Below are positions 18,692 through 25,568 of a stretch of DNA of 64,000 nucleotides, in pieces. The stretch covers positions 186,001 through 250,000 of the forward strand of contig BCHS01000003.1 in assembly GCA_039545275.1 (NCBI GenBank). Direction: 5' to 3'. The notes beneath the pieces were generated by a model. It was not told the origin of the DNA and made no database searches. It saw only the letters and a program-made list of their open reading frames with translations. Origin of the DNA: Pseudomicrostroma phylloplanum (taxonomy: Eukaryota > Basidiomycota > Exobasidiomycetes > Microstromatales). Numbering within the stretch: the first letter of the stretch is position 1; each line of letters starts with the position of its first letter. The translations under genes were made by a program, and so were the position numbers.

Positions 18692-18856
18692 CTAGAGCTT
18701 GTTTGTCGGCTCATTGGGCATGCCGATGGCCGTGTCCAGCTTCTGGTAGATCTGCGAGCCGTGACTCTCAGGCACGGGGTTGATATGCGACCCCAATGCC
18801 CTCGTATCGACCATCTCAGGCTTGAGATCTGCCAATGTAGGGGCTCCAATCAGCCG
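18692..18856 (-). pseudogene. Displaced 3'-terminal fragment of a flavocytochrome b2 gene
   Basis: The minus strand encodes the last about 54 codons of a flavocytochrome b2, from [11 protein letters not shown] through [13 protein letters not shown] to NEPTNKL and a TAG stop. It aligns without gaps to the C-terminus of the intact gene at 23985-24149. From GAPTLADL onward there is one amino-acid change (Lys for Thr after LADL), but by my count about 25 codons differ synonymously. The homology begins abruptly at 18856, preceded by an in-frame TGA, and ends at the stop codon. No upstream part of the gene and no start codon are present, so it cannot make the enzyme. The pattern means the copy was under selection until recently, or diverged in another lineage. 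It could be a remnant of a tandem paralogue or an end displaced by an integrated element. Confidence 0.85.
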
Positions 18857-19030
18857 AGTCAGTCATGGAGTGTCTGATCCACTCTCACTCGATCACGAGG
18901 GGCTTCAATGGGTATGTGTGAATGTCATTGTCGTCTCTTTATCTGGAACTTTTCTTCTGATCGGGGGTGGAGCTCTATCGGACGTACTGGTGACTGTAGT
19001 CATTGGGGAATCGGGAATGGGCGAGAGGTA

Positions 19031-19370
19031 TTAATGGTGGGTGCTACAGGTGAGGGAAGGATGGGTGGGGTGTTTCTTGAGGTGAAGGGCTGTTTCTTGC
19101 GGTGGTACAGTGAATCGCATCTCGTGCGCGTACAGGCGGTTGTGTCTTGTGGAGGAACAATGAGCCGGTGCTGGTCTGGGTACGGGTAGTCGTTTCTTGT
19201 GGGGGTTTACAATGAGCGGGTGTTTGAGTCTGAGGTGCAGTCGCAGCTTGAGGGGGTACAGTGAGCCGCTTTATGTGTGGTACAGGGTGCCAATCTTGTG
19301 GAGTACAGGGAGTCTTTCTCATGTGGTATCGTCGATGCATGGAGCTTTCTCTTGAATAGGTGGGGTAGTC
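19031..19370. repeat. Degenerate tandem repeat field downstream of the recombinase-like gene
   Basis: Roughly 50-60-bp units, each with a core like TTTCTTGTGGNGGTACAATGAGC, recur at least five times with many substitutions. Similar cores are visible near 19091, 19150, 19193 and 19239, with partial ones near 19280 and 19300. No protein is encoded. The field lies between the orphan b2 fragment and the stop codon of the recombinase-like gene. Confidence 0.6.
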
Positions 19371-19388
19371 ATTTGAGTCAGGTGGCGC

Positions 19389-22300
19389 CTAGACTTCTTC
19401 GGAAGCTGAATCTTCGGAGGGAGTCTCATCTCCTGCTGGAAGCCTCGAAGGCCCAGCTTTGCTCTTCTTGCCCTTCTCAAGGGTTGGGCCTTTTCGCTTT
19501 GCTCGCTGGGCTACCTGAATCTTGCCTGCAGCCGTAATCCCACACACGGCAAAGACCTTACCACTCGTTCGAGCAGGATCGTAGTGAGGGACTTTCCCGG
19601 CGAAGTCATCTACTTCGACCGAATCAGCTGACTGTTTGTCGGATGTTCGCAAGATTCCAAGCTTGTGGCCGTTGACCAGGTGTGCGATGTAGCAGAGCTG
19701 CCCTGGTCGATTGATATCCTGGTGGGTCCATTCACAACCACTTACAGCGCACTTCAATAGGTGCGCGCCTGTCTCGTCGCACTCGCTGGTCTGGTATCGC
19801 ACCGTGCAGGGACCGTCCACTGGCTGGTCAAAGACATGCGAAGCCATGTGCGTCTGGAGCTTGGCGACTTCTCCGAACAAAGGGACAATCCCGTAGCCTG
19901 AGATCGGCATCTTCCAATTACGCTTGGGTCTGAGTGGGGTCGCTACCGCCGAATCACCTTTGATGTTTTTCTTGCGTTGATTGCGCAAGCCAGGGTCGAT
20001 ACAGGTTGTGAATGGACAGAGGAAGCCCACGACCCCCTCGAAAGGGGAAGAGACCGTACAGAAATTCTCCATAGTCTTGACTTGGTTGCCATGCTTGGCG
20101 AGAGTGGCATCAAGGCACCTTGTAGCATGGACTTCAATTCGATCCAGACGCTTCTCTTTGAAGCACAGGCAGCAGCGCGTCTTTGTTGGGTCTTTTCGAG
20201 TGCACATGAGCGAGGCTCGAGCTCGTTCCGTCTTGGTTGGCAAGGTGGTGCGAGTGCTTTCCTTGACTTTTCCAAGTCCCTTGGTCTTTACTGGCGGTGC
20301 TACCTCCGAACGGTGCAGTGGGTCCAGACAAGTCGTACAGACGAGAGGGAAGTTCCTGGCCCACTTAAGAATCTTCTCAAAATCACCTCCGCAAATCTCG
20401 TCGAATGGGTGATCGGTCGTAATGTTGATGTTCGCGGACCTTGAAGAAGTATTCAGCATTTCAACGATCCTTACGGCAATGAACGGAATCGGCATGCTCG
20501 GCAGGTTTGTCACTTTGTTCCACGCCTCGAGAAGGGCTTGTTCGGCTCGTTGGAGGTCCCTGGACCTACTTGCTGAGGCAGGGGAGGAGCTGTGACTCTG
20601 GACTTGCTCGGCTGAAGGGTGCTCGAGAGCCTCTTGATCGAGCGTCATTGCGGACGATTCACCAGTTCGTGCGTGTCCGGTGGCTGAGGAAGATTGCATT
20701 AGTCGAGGATCGATGAGACTTCGGCGTTCTTCGTCAAAGGCTTCACTCTCGTCAAAGTCTCCGGTGTCATCGATGTATTCGTCTTCAGTGTCAGCCCCGT
20801 CCTCGCCGATGTCTCCGCTTTCATCTGGTTGTCCAGCGTCGTCTTCGTCATCTGCGTCGTCGCCGCAAGCTCGGAGGTAACGGTTCAGGGCACTGGCGAG
20901 CATCTCGTGCTGCTCTTCTGAAATTCTACTGGGTAAGCTCTCCAGGCTGCCAACGCGGCTAATAGCTTCCTTTTCTTTCTCGCAGGTGGTAGTGAACGCG
21001 GTGCTGGCAAAGGTTCCAGCATCTTGAGGCAGTCTGGTTGAGACGTATACCTGCTGGTGCAGTCGCACATCCCCCTCAAAGTGGCCCATATTGATTGCGA
21101 TTTGGTGCGGAGCAAGAATCTTGTGGGCCTGGGCCTGAATCGAGAAGGTGCGCCTGAGCACGGCAGACCCTAGTCTACCATTGAGCGAGATGACCCGTGA
21201 GATAGCAACCGTCAACGCGCGGAATTGTCTGGTTGTCATAGGTTCGGACCTGCCACCTAGAGCAGTGACATCGTCTTCGCGCAGCCTGACGGGTTTGCGA
21301 GATAATATGCCGGGACGCGGCTGTGCGATGAACACGGGGCATTGGTTATACTTGGACTTCACCGAGAATTTGATCTCCTTGATCCCACCATTCATGCGAT
21401 TGCGAGCCATACTTGCGTCAGTCATGACTTGTTCAAACTCCTCTGGCAGCACGCCGGATAGAATCGCAATGACGATGATGGCAACAGCTACAGAGTGTGA
21501 AGCTTTCTTTGTACCTGTGCCGAACGTGACAGAGATTTGTTGTTTATCACCCAGACTCCACGCTCTCTTGGTGCCTTGCGCAGTCAGGGTAACGAGGCAT
21601 CTGGGCTTCTCCTCGACCCAGCCGAGAAAAGTGAACTCGACGTTCCCCCAGCGGAGGTAACGCCCAGGTTGACTTGATGTCCTCGCCGGAGAGTCCAATA
21701 GGCTCGTGATCCTGACACCGCTAGTGAGAAGGGCCAAGAATACTGCATGTCCCGAGAGCTTCTTGATACTATCCTGCAAAGGTGCTTCGAAGGACTCTTG
21801 CAGGGTCCACATTGCCGACAAGGATCGATCGCGAGTGTCGTCATCGATCCACATCTTCTGTGTAGTCGTCGTTGGGTACCACTTCCTCACTCTTCCGTTG
21901 TAGGACAAGCTCTGAGAGGACAACATACAGTACGAGACGTTCATCAGTGTTGCATGCTACGACTTCTGGACTGGCCCTTCGACCTACCCTCTTGACAGTC
22001 TCAAACATTTCTTTGTGCTTTCCCACATCTATGCCCAGAGTCCCGAGGCCTCGTTGCATCGCCTCTACGCCCATGAGTGCAGTGCCTAAGGTCGCAGGCT
22101 TATCCTCAGGCGCAGGCAGCTCCAGGCCATCGAATGCTACCAGCTCTGCATCGAGGTTCTGGCTTGCTCCCATAGCGTTGTTTGAGGAAGGACCCGCGGC
22201 TGGGGAGACGATGGCTGGAATAATGGGCGCGGCCGAAAGCCCGGTGCTTACCGGTAGTGCTGAGCGGACTATCCCCTTTGAAATCTGTCAGTCGGTCAAA

Positions 22301-23143
22301 TCCAGATGACAGGTCATCAGAAGGTCAGCTGAGGGTGCAGATGCGTCATTTACTACAGCACTTATGCGAGATGTCGCTACCCACCACCCCTTTTGCTTTG
22401 ATTGTCTTCATGTGGAACAGGACAACCCAGAATCCTGCAGTGGTCAGAGCTCCGGTGAGGCCATCCTTGACAAGCTTGGCCCGCTGCGCCTCGATCAGTT
22501 CTTGCAATTCTTCAGAATCAGGATCTTCTAGACCCTGTTCGTCTCTTGACCTGTACACTAGCCACTCGAGAAGGTATCGGACCATGTCTGCAGCTACTTG
22601 AAGGGTTCTCTGCGCAAGAACGGGGGGAGGCGATTTCCAGTGCTTCTCCATTTCGCCTACTTTGTTCTTTGCGGGCATCGCTTTCTTGGCACTTTGCGTG
22701 CGGGGTGCACCCATACCCAGACCGACTGGCAACGTCTTCGCCTGTCTCTTGAGGCTAGACTTGGTCTTCTTCTCGTTGATCGTCGACTTGACCTTGGACT
22801 TGGCAGGCTTACGATTTGCAGTCGACGGGGCGACCGTCGGTCGTGAAGCGCTGAAGGAAGAGCTGCTCGAAGCCTGTAGGGACGCGCTGAGTCCACGACC
22901 CGTCGTCAAGTTGACTTGAGGCTCGTTAGGCTGACGGGTTGAGGTTGACAGGAAGATCGGTGCTAGCGGACGGCTAGATGAGGGACTAGAGGGAGCCTGT
23001 GTGGATGCATTGGGGTCACTCATCGTCGAGTTGACTTTGGGCTTTGCAGACTGACGATTGGCAGTCGACAGAAAGATTGGCGCTAGCGGACGGCTAGCTG
23101 AGGAGCTAGAGGAAGCCTGTGGGGTTGCGTTGTGGTCGCTCAT
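19389..23143 (-). CDS. Tyrosine-recombinase-like protein with C-terminal zinc fingers
   Basis: The three-exon model (23143-22385, 22284-21988, 21911-19389; introns of 100 and 76 nt, all phase 0) gives 1192 aa. Residues 1 to about 115 hold three imperfect copies of a Ser-rich repeat containing SRPLAPIFLST. The central part resembles fungal tyrosine recombinases (Captain/DUF3435 or Crypton type). It has Arg419 in LLTSGVRITSLLD, Lys467 in GTKRAW, Arg605/606 in VLRRTFSIQ, His629 in NMGHFEG and Tyr641 in QQVYVST. The 23 residues from Arg606 to His629 and 12 to Tyr641 are close to Cre and lambda integrase. The usual His three residues before Arg is absent. An acidic stretch (about 697-750) and Cys/His clusters (CTTC at about 876; CCLC with HATRC at about 932-951; C-x4-C with H-x3-H or H-x4-H near 983-1100) follow. 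Family assignment is inference. Confidence 0.55.
22790..23143 (-). repeat. Three imperfect about 115-bp coding repeats at the 5' end of the recombinase-like gene
   Basis: The first exon begins with three tandem copies of a unit encoding roughly MSDxNAxxQASSSSSxSRP, then LAPIFLSTxxRQ, then PKVNST. Copies 1 and 2 are closest; copy 3 is more diverged and has lost the LAPIF core. The repeat is visible in the DNA as two near-identical runs around 23068-23143 and 22951-23023. Confidence 0.7.
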
Positions 23144-23375
23144 CTTGCGCTTTTGGGAGTGTGTCGAGATGTATACGGGTCAACTGGTTAAGAGAAGCGG
23201 GAGTGGTGACAAAGAGGCGGGAGGCTGTGACAAGATGCAACGACACAGAAAGGACCTTCCCACCCCTCAACCCAACGCTGCCCACCCAGCTGGGGAGGTG
23301 GTGTGGAGGAGTGGTATTCGAGGAAGGTGATGGCGAGAGATCTGGTGTCCAAGGGTGTGAGGTTGAGAGACGGAT

Positions 23376-23648
23376 GTGTATTCCAGGGAGGTGTTGTCGA
23401 GGGAGGTGGTATGGAGGGACGTGTTGTCGAGAGAGGTGGTTTAGAGGGACGTGTTGTCGAGAGAGGTGGTTTGGAGGGAGGTGGTATGGAGGAACGATTC
23501 GTGGAAGGAGGTCTCGAGGGAGGTGGTATGGAGGGACGTAGCACGGACAAAGGCGGTATGGACAAAGGTAGTAGGGACGAAGGTGGTAATGAGGAGGAGG
23601 GTGGTATGGAGAGAGATGGTATGGAGAGAGGTGGTGAGAGGGAGTGAG
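23376..23648 (+). repeat. GGAGGTGGTATGGAGGGA minisatellite
   Basis: A purine-rich array of about 15-bp and 30-bp units (GGAGGTGGTATGGAG, GGACGTGTTGTCGAGAGAGGTGGTTT and variants) runs for about 270 bp in the leader of the recombinase-like gene. Its open frames are a by-product of the repeat. Together with 23649-23984, which shows no gene, it fills the gap between that gene and the stop of flavocytochrome b2. Confidence 0.75.
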
Positions 23649-23984
23649 AGAGAGAGAAAGCGCGAACGCGAACGCGTCTATACGCTTTGCACGTCCTCGT
23701 TCATCTATTACGGGCCGCTCCAGCTTGGACCACGTCGATTCACCAGTGATGGCTGCGTCCAGATTGTTCCGACAGCAACAGGGCTATTAATTGTAATTAC
23801 TTGCCGCCTCGCGTCGCGACGACTTTCCTAATGATGCGGACGGAGTCCACACTCCGGCGGCTCGAGGAGCCTTCTGCCTGTCACGCACGGCACACTCGGT
23901 TCTGCAGGACGACGGACAGAATACATCAATTCGCAAAACAAAGCACTGGACAACACCCCTCTCTTCTGCGACAGTTCGCTCCTT

Positions 23985-25568
23985 TCAAAGCTTGTTTGTC
24001 GGCTCGTTGGGCATGCCGATGGCGGTATCGAGTTTTTGGTAGATCTGCGAGCCGTGGCTCTCTGGAACCGGATTGATGTGGGAGCCTAGCGCTCGTGTAT
24101 CGACCATCTCTGGGGTTAGATCTGCCAAAGTAGGTGCGCCCAAAAGTCTCATGTTCATTGACATCTCGGCCATGAGCAGGTTGATGGCATGTACGACACC
24201 ATCAGGTCCGTAGGCCGAGTAGGCGTAGAGGAAGGGTCTGCCGATTCCGACTCCCTTTGCGCCCATGGCGACGGCCTTGAGGACGTCCGTAGCGCGACGG
24301 ACGCCTCCGTCGATGTAGACTTCGAATGTGGGCTTCCAGAGGTTGCGGGCCTTGAGCGCCGTCACTACCTCTTCGAGGATCTCGATTCCAGCACGGGCAT
24401 AGTCGAGCTGACGACCACCGTGGTTGGAAAGGACGATACCGTTGAGGCCCGCCTCGGCGGCGAGAACGGCATCCTCCCAGGTCTGAACACCCTTGAGACA
24501 GATCGGCATCTTTGTGCATGAGCGCAGCCACTGCAGGTCCTCCCAGTTCAGGCTGGGGTCGATGAAGGAGCTGATAGCTCTTGCCGCTCCCTGAGAACGA
24601 TCGACGTCGTCCTTGCCCTCGTTCTGGACTTGCGATCCTGTGTCGTCAAACTTCATTCGCATGTCCTTTTCTCGTCGACCGAGCTGAGGAGCATCGACTG
24701 TGACAAAGAGACCCTTGATACCGCGATCCTCGGCCTTGCGGATGATCTTCTCGGTAATGGCGCGGTTGGAGTTGACGTAGAGCTGGAAGAACTGCACTTG
24801 CTGGTCATTGAGGCGCGCGTCGACAATTTCGTCAAACGAGCAAGAGGCGAGGGTGGGGATCATCTGGATGATGCCAGTCTTGCCAGCAGCAATGGTCAGA
24901 TTCTTCTCTCCATCTGGGTGTCCCAGCTTGCCCAGGGCAGTGGCGGTGATGTAGATGGGCATCGTCGTCTTCATACCGAGCATCGTCGTGGCAAAGTTGA
25001 TGTTAGAGACGTTGCGCAAGATCCTCGGTCGGAACCAGATCCTACCAAACACGTTGCTGTTCTCTCGCATCGTGACTTCATCGTCGGCTCCCGACGAGTA
25101 GTAGGCCCAGGCGGTGGGCTTGAGCACCTGCTTGCCCACCACTTCAAAGTCGTAGAGGTTGAGACATTGCGACAGAGGTGGGATCTGGCCAGGCTGCAGG
25201 ACGGCCTTCTCGGGGTCCTTCTGCTCGAGCTTCTCGACGGTATCGGGCTGGACCTCTCCGAGGCACTTGTCTTCCGACAGGTTCTCCTCGAGAGTTCCAG
25301 GTGGGTGAATGGGTTCGTACTCCTCGCTGGCAGGAGAAAAAGGGGACGAGAGATTAGCGAGTGAGCAAAAGCTCTGAGCTACATTTGTGTACAATCGCAT
25401 CTCCACTCACGTGGCGTCCTTTCCACCGTACTTGAGGAGGATGGAGCTTCCACCAGGATGGTTGGGGGCAAACTCGGTCAAGTCGTATACCTTTCCATGT
25501 ACGATGAGCCAGAGGTCGTCCTTCTTGTTGTGCTTGGCCACATCGGCGCCATTGAGTTGCTTTGCCAT
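23985..25568 (-). CDS. CYB2: Flavocytochrome b2-type L-lactate (alpha-hydroxyacid) dehydrogenase
   Basis: A two-exon gene (25568-25411, 25326-23985) encoding 499 aa. The N-terminal cytochrome b5 domain has the haem-ligand motif NHPGG and a second ligand His in [10 protein letters not shown]. The FMN-dependent dehydrogenase domain follows (about 125-480). It has [36 protein letters not shown] and the catalytic [10 protein letters not shown], matching the Tyr, Asp, Lys, His and Arg set of yeast Cyb2. It oxidises L-lactate or another 2-hydroxyacid to the keto acid. The first in-frame ATG ([10 protein letters not shown]) has a strong context, and no mitochondrial presequence is visible upstream or after it. 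That is unlike yeast Cyb2 and suggests a cytosolic or other location. The last about 54 codons exist a second time at 18692-18856. Confidence 0.93.

Follow-up and report, generated by a model that had tools for sequence, protein, structure and literature searches.

The nuclear gene encoding flavocytochrome b2 (L-lactate dehydrogenase) in Pseudomicrostroma phylloplanum probably had its 3' end swapped by a small mobile element of about 5.3 kb containing one recombinase gene, an explanation that we favour while regarding it as well short of certain. The window, i.e., the whole stretch of 64,000 nucleotides that was analysed (C3:186001-250000), is part of a genome assembly of 17.08 Mb in 20 contigs. 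According to this explanation, the element would have entered the 3' end of b2, bringing along a version of the last 54-62 codons that had diverged but was functional. This version would now complete the gene, and the native last 54 codons would have been left stranded on the far side of the element. A DUF3435-like tyrosine recombinase may have joined an attachment site of the element, resembling a gene end, to its counterpart in the host gene, and the replacement end would itself be maintained under protein-level selection; since a replacement end of this kind keeps the host gene working, the insertion would not be selected against. Here we infer the mobility of the element, the direction of the replacement and the role of the enzyme.

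The b2 gene is located at positions 23985 to 25568 of the window, on the minus strand, and is complete, as the initial annotation had stated, with a first exon (about 25410-25568) that probably encodes a heme domain, followed by the FMN_dh domain (Pfam, E 2.4e-113), which runs to the stop at 23985. The b2 protein is 84% identical to a protein of Sympodiomycopsis kandeliae, the nearest named relative as judged by this protein, which points to a basidiomycete host. The putative imported 3' end, suggested by deviant residues and GC content at third codon positions (GC3), comprises residues from about 382 to 443 and the stop (23985-24173, minus strand), its start being placed at the first deviant residues, and the portion that it has in common with the orphan is 23985-24149, i.e., 54 codons and the stop. 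The orphan 3' end, probably the native one, is found at 18692-18856 and has 54 intact codons and a TAG stop; like b2 and the recombinase-like gene, it is on the minus strand. The repeat finder detected a minisatellite of the GGAGGTGGTATGGAG type with units of ~15 bp (23304-23632), located after the end of b2 and ahead of the recombinase start. The predicted DUF3435-like tyrosine recombinase gene (19389-23143) was put together from open reading frames and would encode about 1190 amino acids in three exons at about 23143-22385, 22284-21988 and 21911-19389, with putative splice sites. It is followed by the right arm of the element, the 532 bp from the recombinase stop to the orphan (18857-19388), present as a single copy in the genome search. 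A tandem duplication of 120 bp with 78% identity (window positions 22898-23137) is located inside the first recombinase exon, giving a repeated Ser/Pro-rich N-terminal unit. The earlier description of the interval as one recombinase-like gene plus repeats holds for the three-exon gene, the minisatellite and the 120-bp duplication; the recombinase assignment gains no direct support from Pfam and is supported indirectly. The GC content of the 5.3-kb interval is 0.546 vs 0.578 for the window, ranking fourth lowest among 236 windows of equal size.

Regarding the duplicated end itself, the recurrence of the last ~54 codons of b2 as an orphan 5.3 kb downstream in the same orientation, proposed initially, was recovered both by the repeat finder, which gave a direct repeat of 152 nt (18696-18847 and 23989-24140) with 82% identity and a spacing of 5,293 bp, and by blastn in a comparison of 1.4 kb vs 2.6 kb (125/152, E 4e-40); read in frame, the repeat covers 54 codons and the stop in each copy. 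No stop and no frameshift interrupts the 54 codons of the orphan, which was therefore probably stranded recently. The two ends differ in 28 of the 54 codons, 26 of them synonymously and two nonsynonymously (I392 and K401 in the orphan), and the 33 nucleotide differences are split 4/1/28 across codon positions 1, 2 and 3, for which neutral drift gives P values of about 1e-9 (codon positions) and 1e-12 (synonymous vs nonsynonymous) when neutral shares are assumed. Divergence that is almost all silent indicates that both ends were coding for a working protein as they diverged and that neither is a decayed fragment, and a synonymous divergence (NG86 dS) beyond estimation points to the derivation of the working b2 end from a diverged lineage. 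Homology ends at the stop codon, similarity between the 3' UTRs not being above that of shuffled sequences, and the same was found for the sequence upstream of the orphan (the score was reached by 82/1000 shuffles in the upstream test and by 129/1000 in the 3' UTR test). When the b2 protein was searched against the 17.08-Mb genome, the orphan was recovered as a separate piece at 95% identity and all other matches were at most 47% identical; a second flavocytochrome-b2-like gene is located at C4:339764-341145 and is 42-47% identical piecewise. An AG and a branch-like sequence near the start of the orphan prompted consideration of the orphan as an alternative last exon spliced onto b2, which was set aside because the codons for RLIG, ahead of this AG, are already alignable with the coding part of b2.

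The b2 arrangement is known from a single instance and from assembly sequence alone, as would be the case for a chimeric assembly (e.g., with a related species) or for an exon duplicated by chance next to a recombinase gene domesticated long ago. Such an artefact or coincidence is regarded as highly improbable: a divergence of 18%, nearly all of it silent, is hard to obtain by misassembling one locus, no second copy of the interval or of the right arm was listed in the search of the 17.08-Mb assembly, and an independent source contains a 504-residue piece of the recombinase that is 98% identical.

Residues, codon usage and silent divergence were brought to bear on which of the two ends is native. 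The working b2 protein was aligned with 120 listed relatives out of 7,952 found, to which the residue counts given here refer. M382 and S386 of the working b2 were each found in 0 of the 119 listed relatives having these positions, at which there is no comparison with the orphan, since it stops short of residues 382 and 386. At residue 392, isoleucine is the commonest residue (77 of 118 listed relatives) and is present in the orphan, the working b2 having leucine (39/118), and at residue 401 the orphan has lysine, as do relatives P0003-P0005, and the working b2 threonine, which is not rare (32/118 listed relatives), so that this position is weak evidence. At both of these differing residues, the orphan matches the next three relatives, P0003-P0005, and a stretch of 21 residues in the orphan is identical to relative P0004, from which the working b2 differs by I392L and K401T. 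Regarding codon usage, GC3 is 0.72 in the b2 body and 0.73 in the orphan, and the value of the working end, 0.60, is nearer to that of the recombinase gene (0.58). Over the 26 synonymous differences, the orphan proves more host-like by 12.8 nats when the codon log-likelihood is based on usage in the b2 body and by 7.8 nats when it is based on six window genes including the b2 body, with only 17/26 and 15/26 sites, respectively, favouring the orphan; under the b2-body model, both the orphan and the working end score below every window of the body. Taken together, these comparisons, short of proof, favour the orphan as the native end and the working b2 end as imported.

An origin from tandem b2 paralogues, in which a diverged working pair would have lost the downstream copy, except for its last 54 codons, through insertion of the recombinase gene or recombination at that gene, would explain without any import why both ends diverged under selection. 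It would leave unexplained, however, why residues 392 and 401 of the relatives are matched by the orphan rather than by the working b2, why deviant residues such as M382 and S386 are confined to the vicinity of the end, and why a second near-identical b2 protein (P0002, described below) agrees with the window protein in the body and disagrees with it at the end; moreover, further traces of another b2 gene were listed neither in the interval nor, above 47% identity, in the genome. We consider this origin distinctly unlikely.

The positions of the seams bear on how the putative imported end arrived. The left seam is placed at about residue 382, where deviant residues begin, and the right seam at residue 390, where the orphan starts, about 8 codons apart; the junctions within the target gene, the left one being placed from residues, therefore do not coincide as bacterial-type integration requires. 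This offset clashes with conservative site-specific recombination, which predicts coincidence. P0002, a b2 protein of metagenomic source that is near-identical to that of the window (98%), differs from it at 3 of 379 body residues and at 8 of 64 end residues (P 1.5e-5, with a boundary chosen post hoc), and 6 of these 11 differences are in residues 382-392, a clustering matched by 0 of 20,000 random placements; if the start of the orphan is taken as the boundary, the contrast is 3/54 vs 8/389 (P 0.14). Between the end of P0002 and the orphan, 3 of 54 residues differ. With the ending of P0002, the closest relative, counted alongside the orphan and the working end, there are three b2 endings. Two b2 proteins that are otherwise near-identical disagree at the seam region.

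Since the left seam precedes the right one by about 8 codons, a serious rival is break repair on one side only, or introgression, although we think it unlikely. A break in the native b2 3' end would in that case have been repaired by copying the b2 locus of a different species with a recombinase gene downstream. The copying would have replaced the 3' end and added about 5 kb, after which end joining would have linked the copy to the broken native end; the recombinase would be a passenger and site-specific integration unneeded, in a process resembling endonuclease homing in fungal mitochondria. A left seam (~382) upstream of the right (390) fits homology on one side and end joining on the other. 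Features of a transposable element were also sought in the window element: the repeat finder returned no terminal inverted repeats of at least 20 bp, the arms share, besides the duplicated end, only matches of 9-10 bp at chance level, and neither a short terminal direct repeat nor a short target duplication was recognised, the boundaries being too blurred to judge repeats of 4-6 bp. This lack of recognised terminal repeats or target duplication is in keeping with break repair, as is the occurrence in metagenomic sources of a recombinase piece and a b2 protein, each 98% identical to those of the window (a shared genome or adjacency of the two is not established), from which the recombinase gene may be resident in relatives. 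Break repair, however, presupposes a donor in which a recombinase gene directly follows b2, an arrangement that would in turn need explaining, and leaves the presence of a related recombinase gene beside an orphan 3' part of a tRNA gene, described below, without explanation. Break repair thus accounts better for the offset seams, but not for the tRNA case.

In the preferred explanation, the gene between the two ends would encode the enzyme that integrates the element. The recombinase-like protein had no significant match in Pfam, PHROG or PDB sequence searches, and PF11917 (DUF3435) matched neither the window protein nor either of the alignment members; no GCR1_C domain was found in Pfam scans of the window ORFs and the alignment members, nor was any endonuclease family in scans of the three insert ORFs and the alignment members. 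Among 5.8 billion proteins, only P0001, of metagenomic source, was found (494/504 residues identical, 98%), but as about 8,000 word-sharing candidates were scored per protein search, distant relatives were possibly missed; the source label 'lgn' is presumed by us to mean Logan. No relative of the recombinase was found in viral contigs. In the genome, at least one other intact member and at least one relic are present, these counts being lower bounds. The intact member (C1:1956050-1960163) is 31-33% identical to the window recombinase. Tyrosine recombinases canonically contain the residues R...HxxR...H/W...Y with typical spacing, and R102, R288/R289, H312 and Y324 (A1 numbering) are conserved between both members, with the arginine and histidine 23-24 residues apart and the histidine and tyrosine 12 apart; the first histidine of HxxR in box II is replaced by A or V (AVLRR) in the aligned members. 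The C-terminal part of the recombinase is Cys/His-rich, and structure prediction from the single sequence gave a pLDDT of 30 and a fold that is unusable. A profile of the two members aligns with a DUF3435 protein encoded on contig C4, registering the first Arg box, an LRWxxxEF stretch and the GH...Y box, at a score of 28.9 vs 28.2 for the best of 300 shuffles and an hhalign probability of 5.7%. The identification of the window protein as a divergent DUF3435-like recombinase is moderately supported by these sequence comparisons, its catalytic role being predicted. The C4 gene, a DUF3435 (captain-type) recombinase gene at C4:376286-378978 that belongs to another family, was recognised by Pfam with E 2.4e-15 on the joined exons; no duplicated gene end was found near it in 29 kb, the only self-matches being a tandem-repeat cluster 8-10 kb off.

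The second intact family member, on contig C1, is also accompanied by a duplicated gene part. In a self-comparison of 19 kb, its recombinase gene is flanked by an 86-bp inverted repeat, besides local tandem repeats. The right copy lies within an intact tRNA gene (C1:1960690-1960801) with a 40-nt intron in the anticodon loop, which escaped the first tRNA and Rfam scans and was detected by ARAGORN with introns allowed; the label given by ARAGORN, Pyl(cta), is read as a putative tRNA-Glu(CTC) with its intron at the usual place. The left copy (C1:1954495-1954580) is an orphan that begins at the anticodon and has the intron, the 3' half and a T-run, without the 5' half. The orphan differs from the right copy at 7 positions, five of them intronic (one just outside the intron according to ARAGORN) and two past the mature end. 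A genome search with this tRNA listed two intact copies and one orphan, intronless tRNA-Glu genes being liable to be missed, and the orphan is 6.1 kb from one of the intact copies, with the recombinase gene in between. That intact tRNA gene is 97% identical to the other intact copy over 119 bp (92% over 159 bp when flanking sequence is included), and because it matches the other copy throughout, it is not visibly chimeric. The tRNA gene and its orphan lie inverted, whereas the b2 ends in the window lie direct, and the inversion, together with a tRNA gene that is not visibly chimeric, makes it necessary to suppose that this locus was rearranged later or arose by a different route. Beyond the recombinase stop, the nearest gene piece is reached after 532 bp in the window (orphan) and after 523 bp on C1 (intact tRNA), a likeness given no weight because the adjoining pieces differ in kind. 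The relic (C5:857037-857321), a decayed piece of a gene from this recombinase family, contains one stop, and blastn found no self-repeat within 9.5 kb there; an ORF in the same 9.5 kb is presumably that of ATP synthase alpha. A gene-end duplication is thus found at two of the three loci detected for the recombinase family (the window and C1, not C5).

The 3' end of b2 is duplicated directly around an integrase-like gene and b2 is intact, as in gene-end elements of the bacterial type. Integration with replacement of the gene end, the central proposal of the initial annotation, is strengthened by an orphan that looks native, a working end that looks imported and the parallel on C1, and is weakened by the offset of the seams and the inverted tRNA. 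A wider generalisation, advanced tentatively and with slightly more doubt than belief, is that a nuclear eukaryotic family of tyrosine-recombinase elements targets the 3' ends of genes and carries replacements for them, ends being swapped between lineages and possibly repeatedly at one site, in view of the three b2 endings; the targets of such a family would be a protein gene in the case of b2 and the anticodon loop of a tRNA gene in the case of the C1 member. If true, a nuclear element of eukaryotes would have converged on the strategy of bacterial islands, landing harmlessly in useful gene ends by restoring them, pieces of housekeeping genes would have a route for moving between fungal lineages and making chimeric proteins, and there would be a natural eukaryotic recombinase with a defined gene-end target.

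Regarding known systems, integrative elements and genomic islands of bacteria and archaea use tyrosine integrases at the 3' ends of tRNA or protein genes. The b2 case is similar in that a duplicated gene 3' end flanks an element carrying an integrase-like gene and the host gene is restored, and differs in being in a fungal nucleus, in involving another recombinase family, in the 18% divergence of the end and in the offset seams. No replacement of a gene end in a fungal nucleus was found among the titles and abstract beginnings searched, a scope outside which most subscription papers and preprints fall.

In fungal mitochondria, mobile ORF elements (mORFs) replace C-terminal coding ends, and the precedent of atp6 in Allomyces macrogynus mentioned in the initial annotation is accurate, with further cases in Glomus sp. 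(atp6, atp9, cox2 and nad3), where the two atp6 ends have 63.5% nucleotide and 91% amino acid identity (PMC3630166). They resemble the b2 case in having a foreign end in frame, the native end beyond the mobility gene and a divergence that is mostly silent at the protein level (PMC3630166), and, unlike it, they are mitochondrial, encode a LAGLIDADG or GIY-YIG endonuclease and are about 1 kb (atp6) vs 5.3 kb in size. Cryptons have direct repeats of 4-6 bp and, in fungal ones, a GCR1_C domain (PMC3212892); the b2 element is similarly small, with a tyrosine recombinase (YR) gene and without terminal inverted repeats, but has a long gene-end duplication and no match to GCR1_C in Pfam. Starships, which have DUF3435 captains, are placed in Pezizomycotina (PMC12506042; PMC12134995) and are described with short direct repeats (PMC12506042). 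The b2 element shares with Starships a recombinase that is distantly similar to DUF3435, with catalytic-type residues in the middle of the protein and a Cys/His-rich C-terminal part, and a recombinase gene within about 1 kb of one element end. Unlike Starships, it has no recognised short direct repeats, its protein has no match to the DUF3435 model, and it is a 5.3-kb element outside Pezizomycotina that carries no cargo and restores the gene end.
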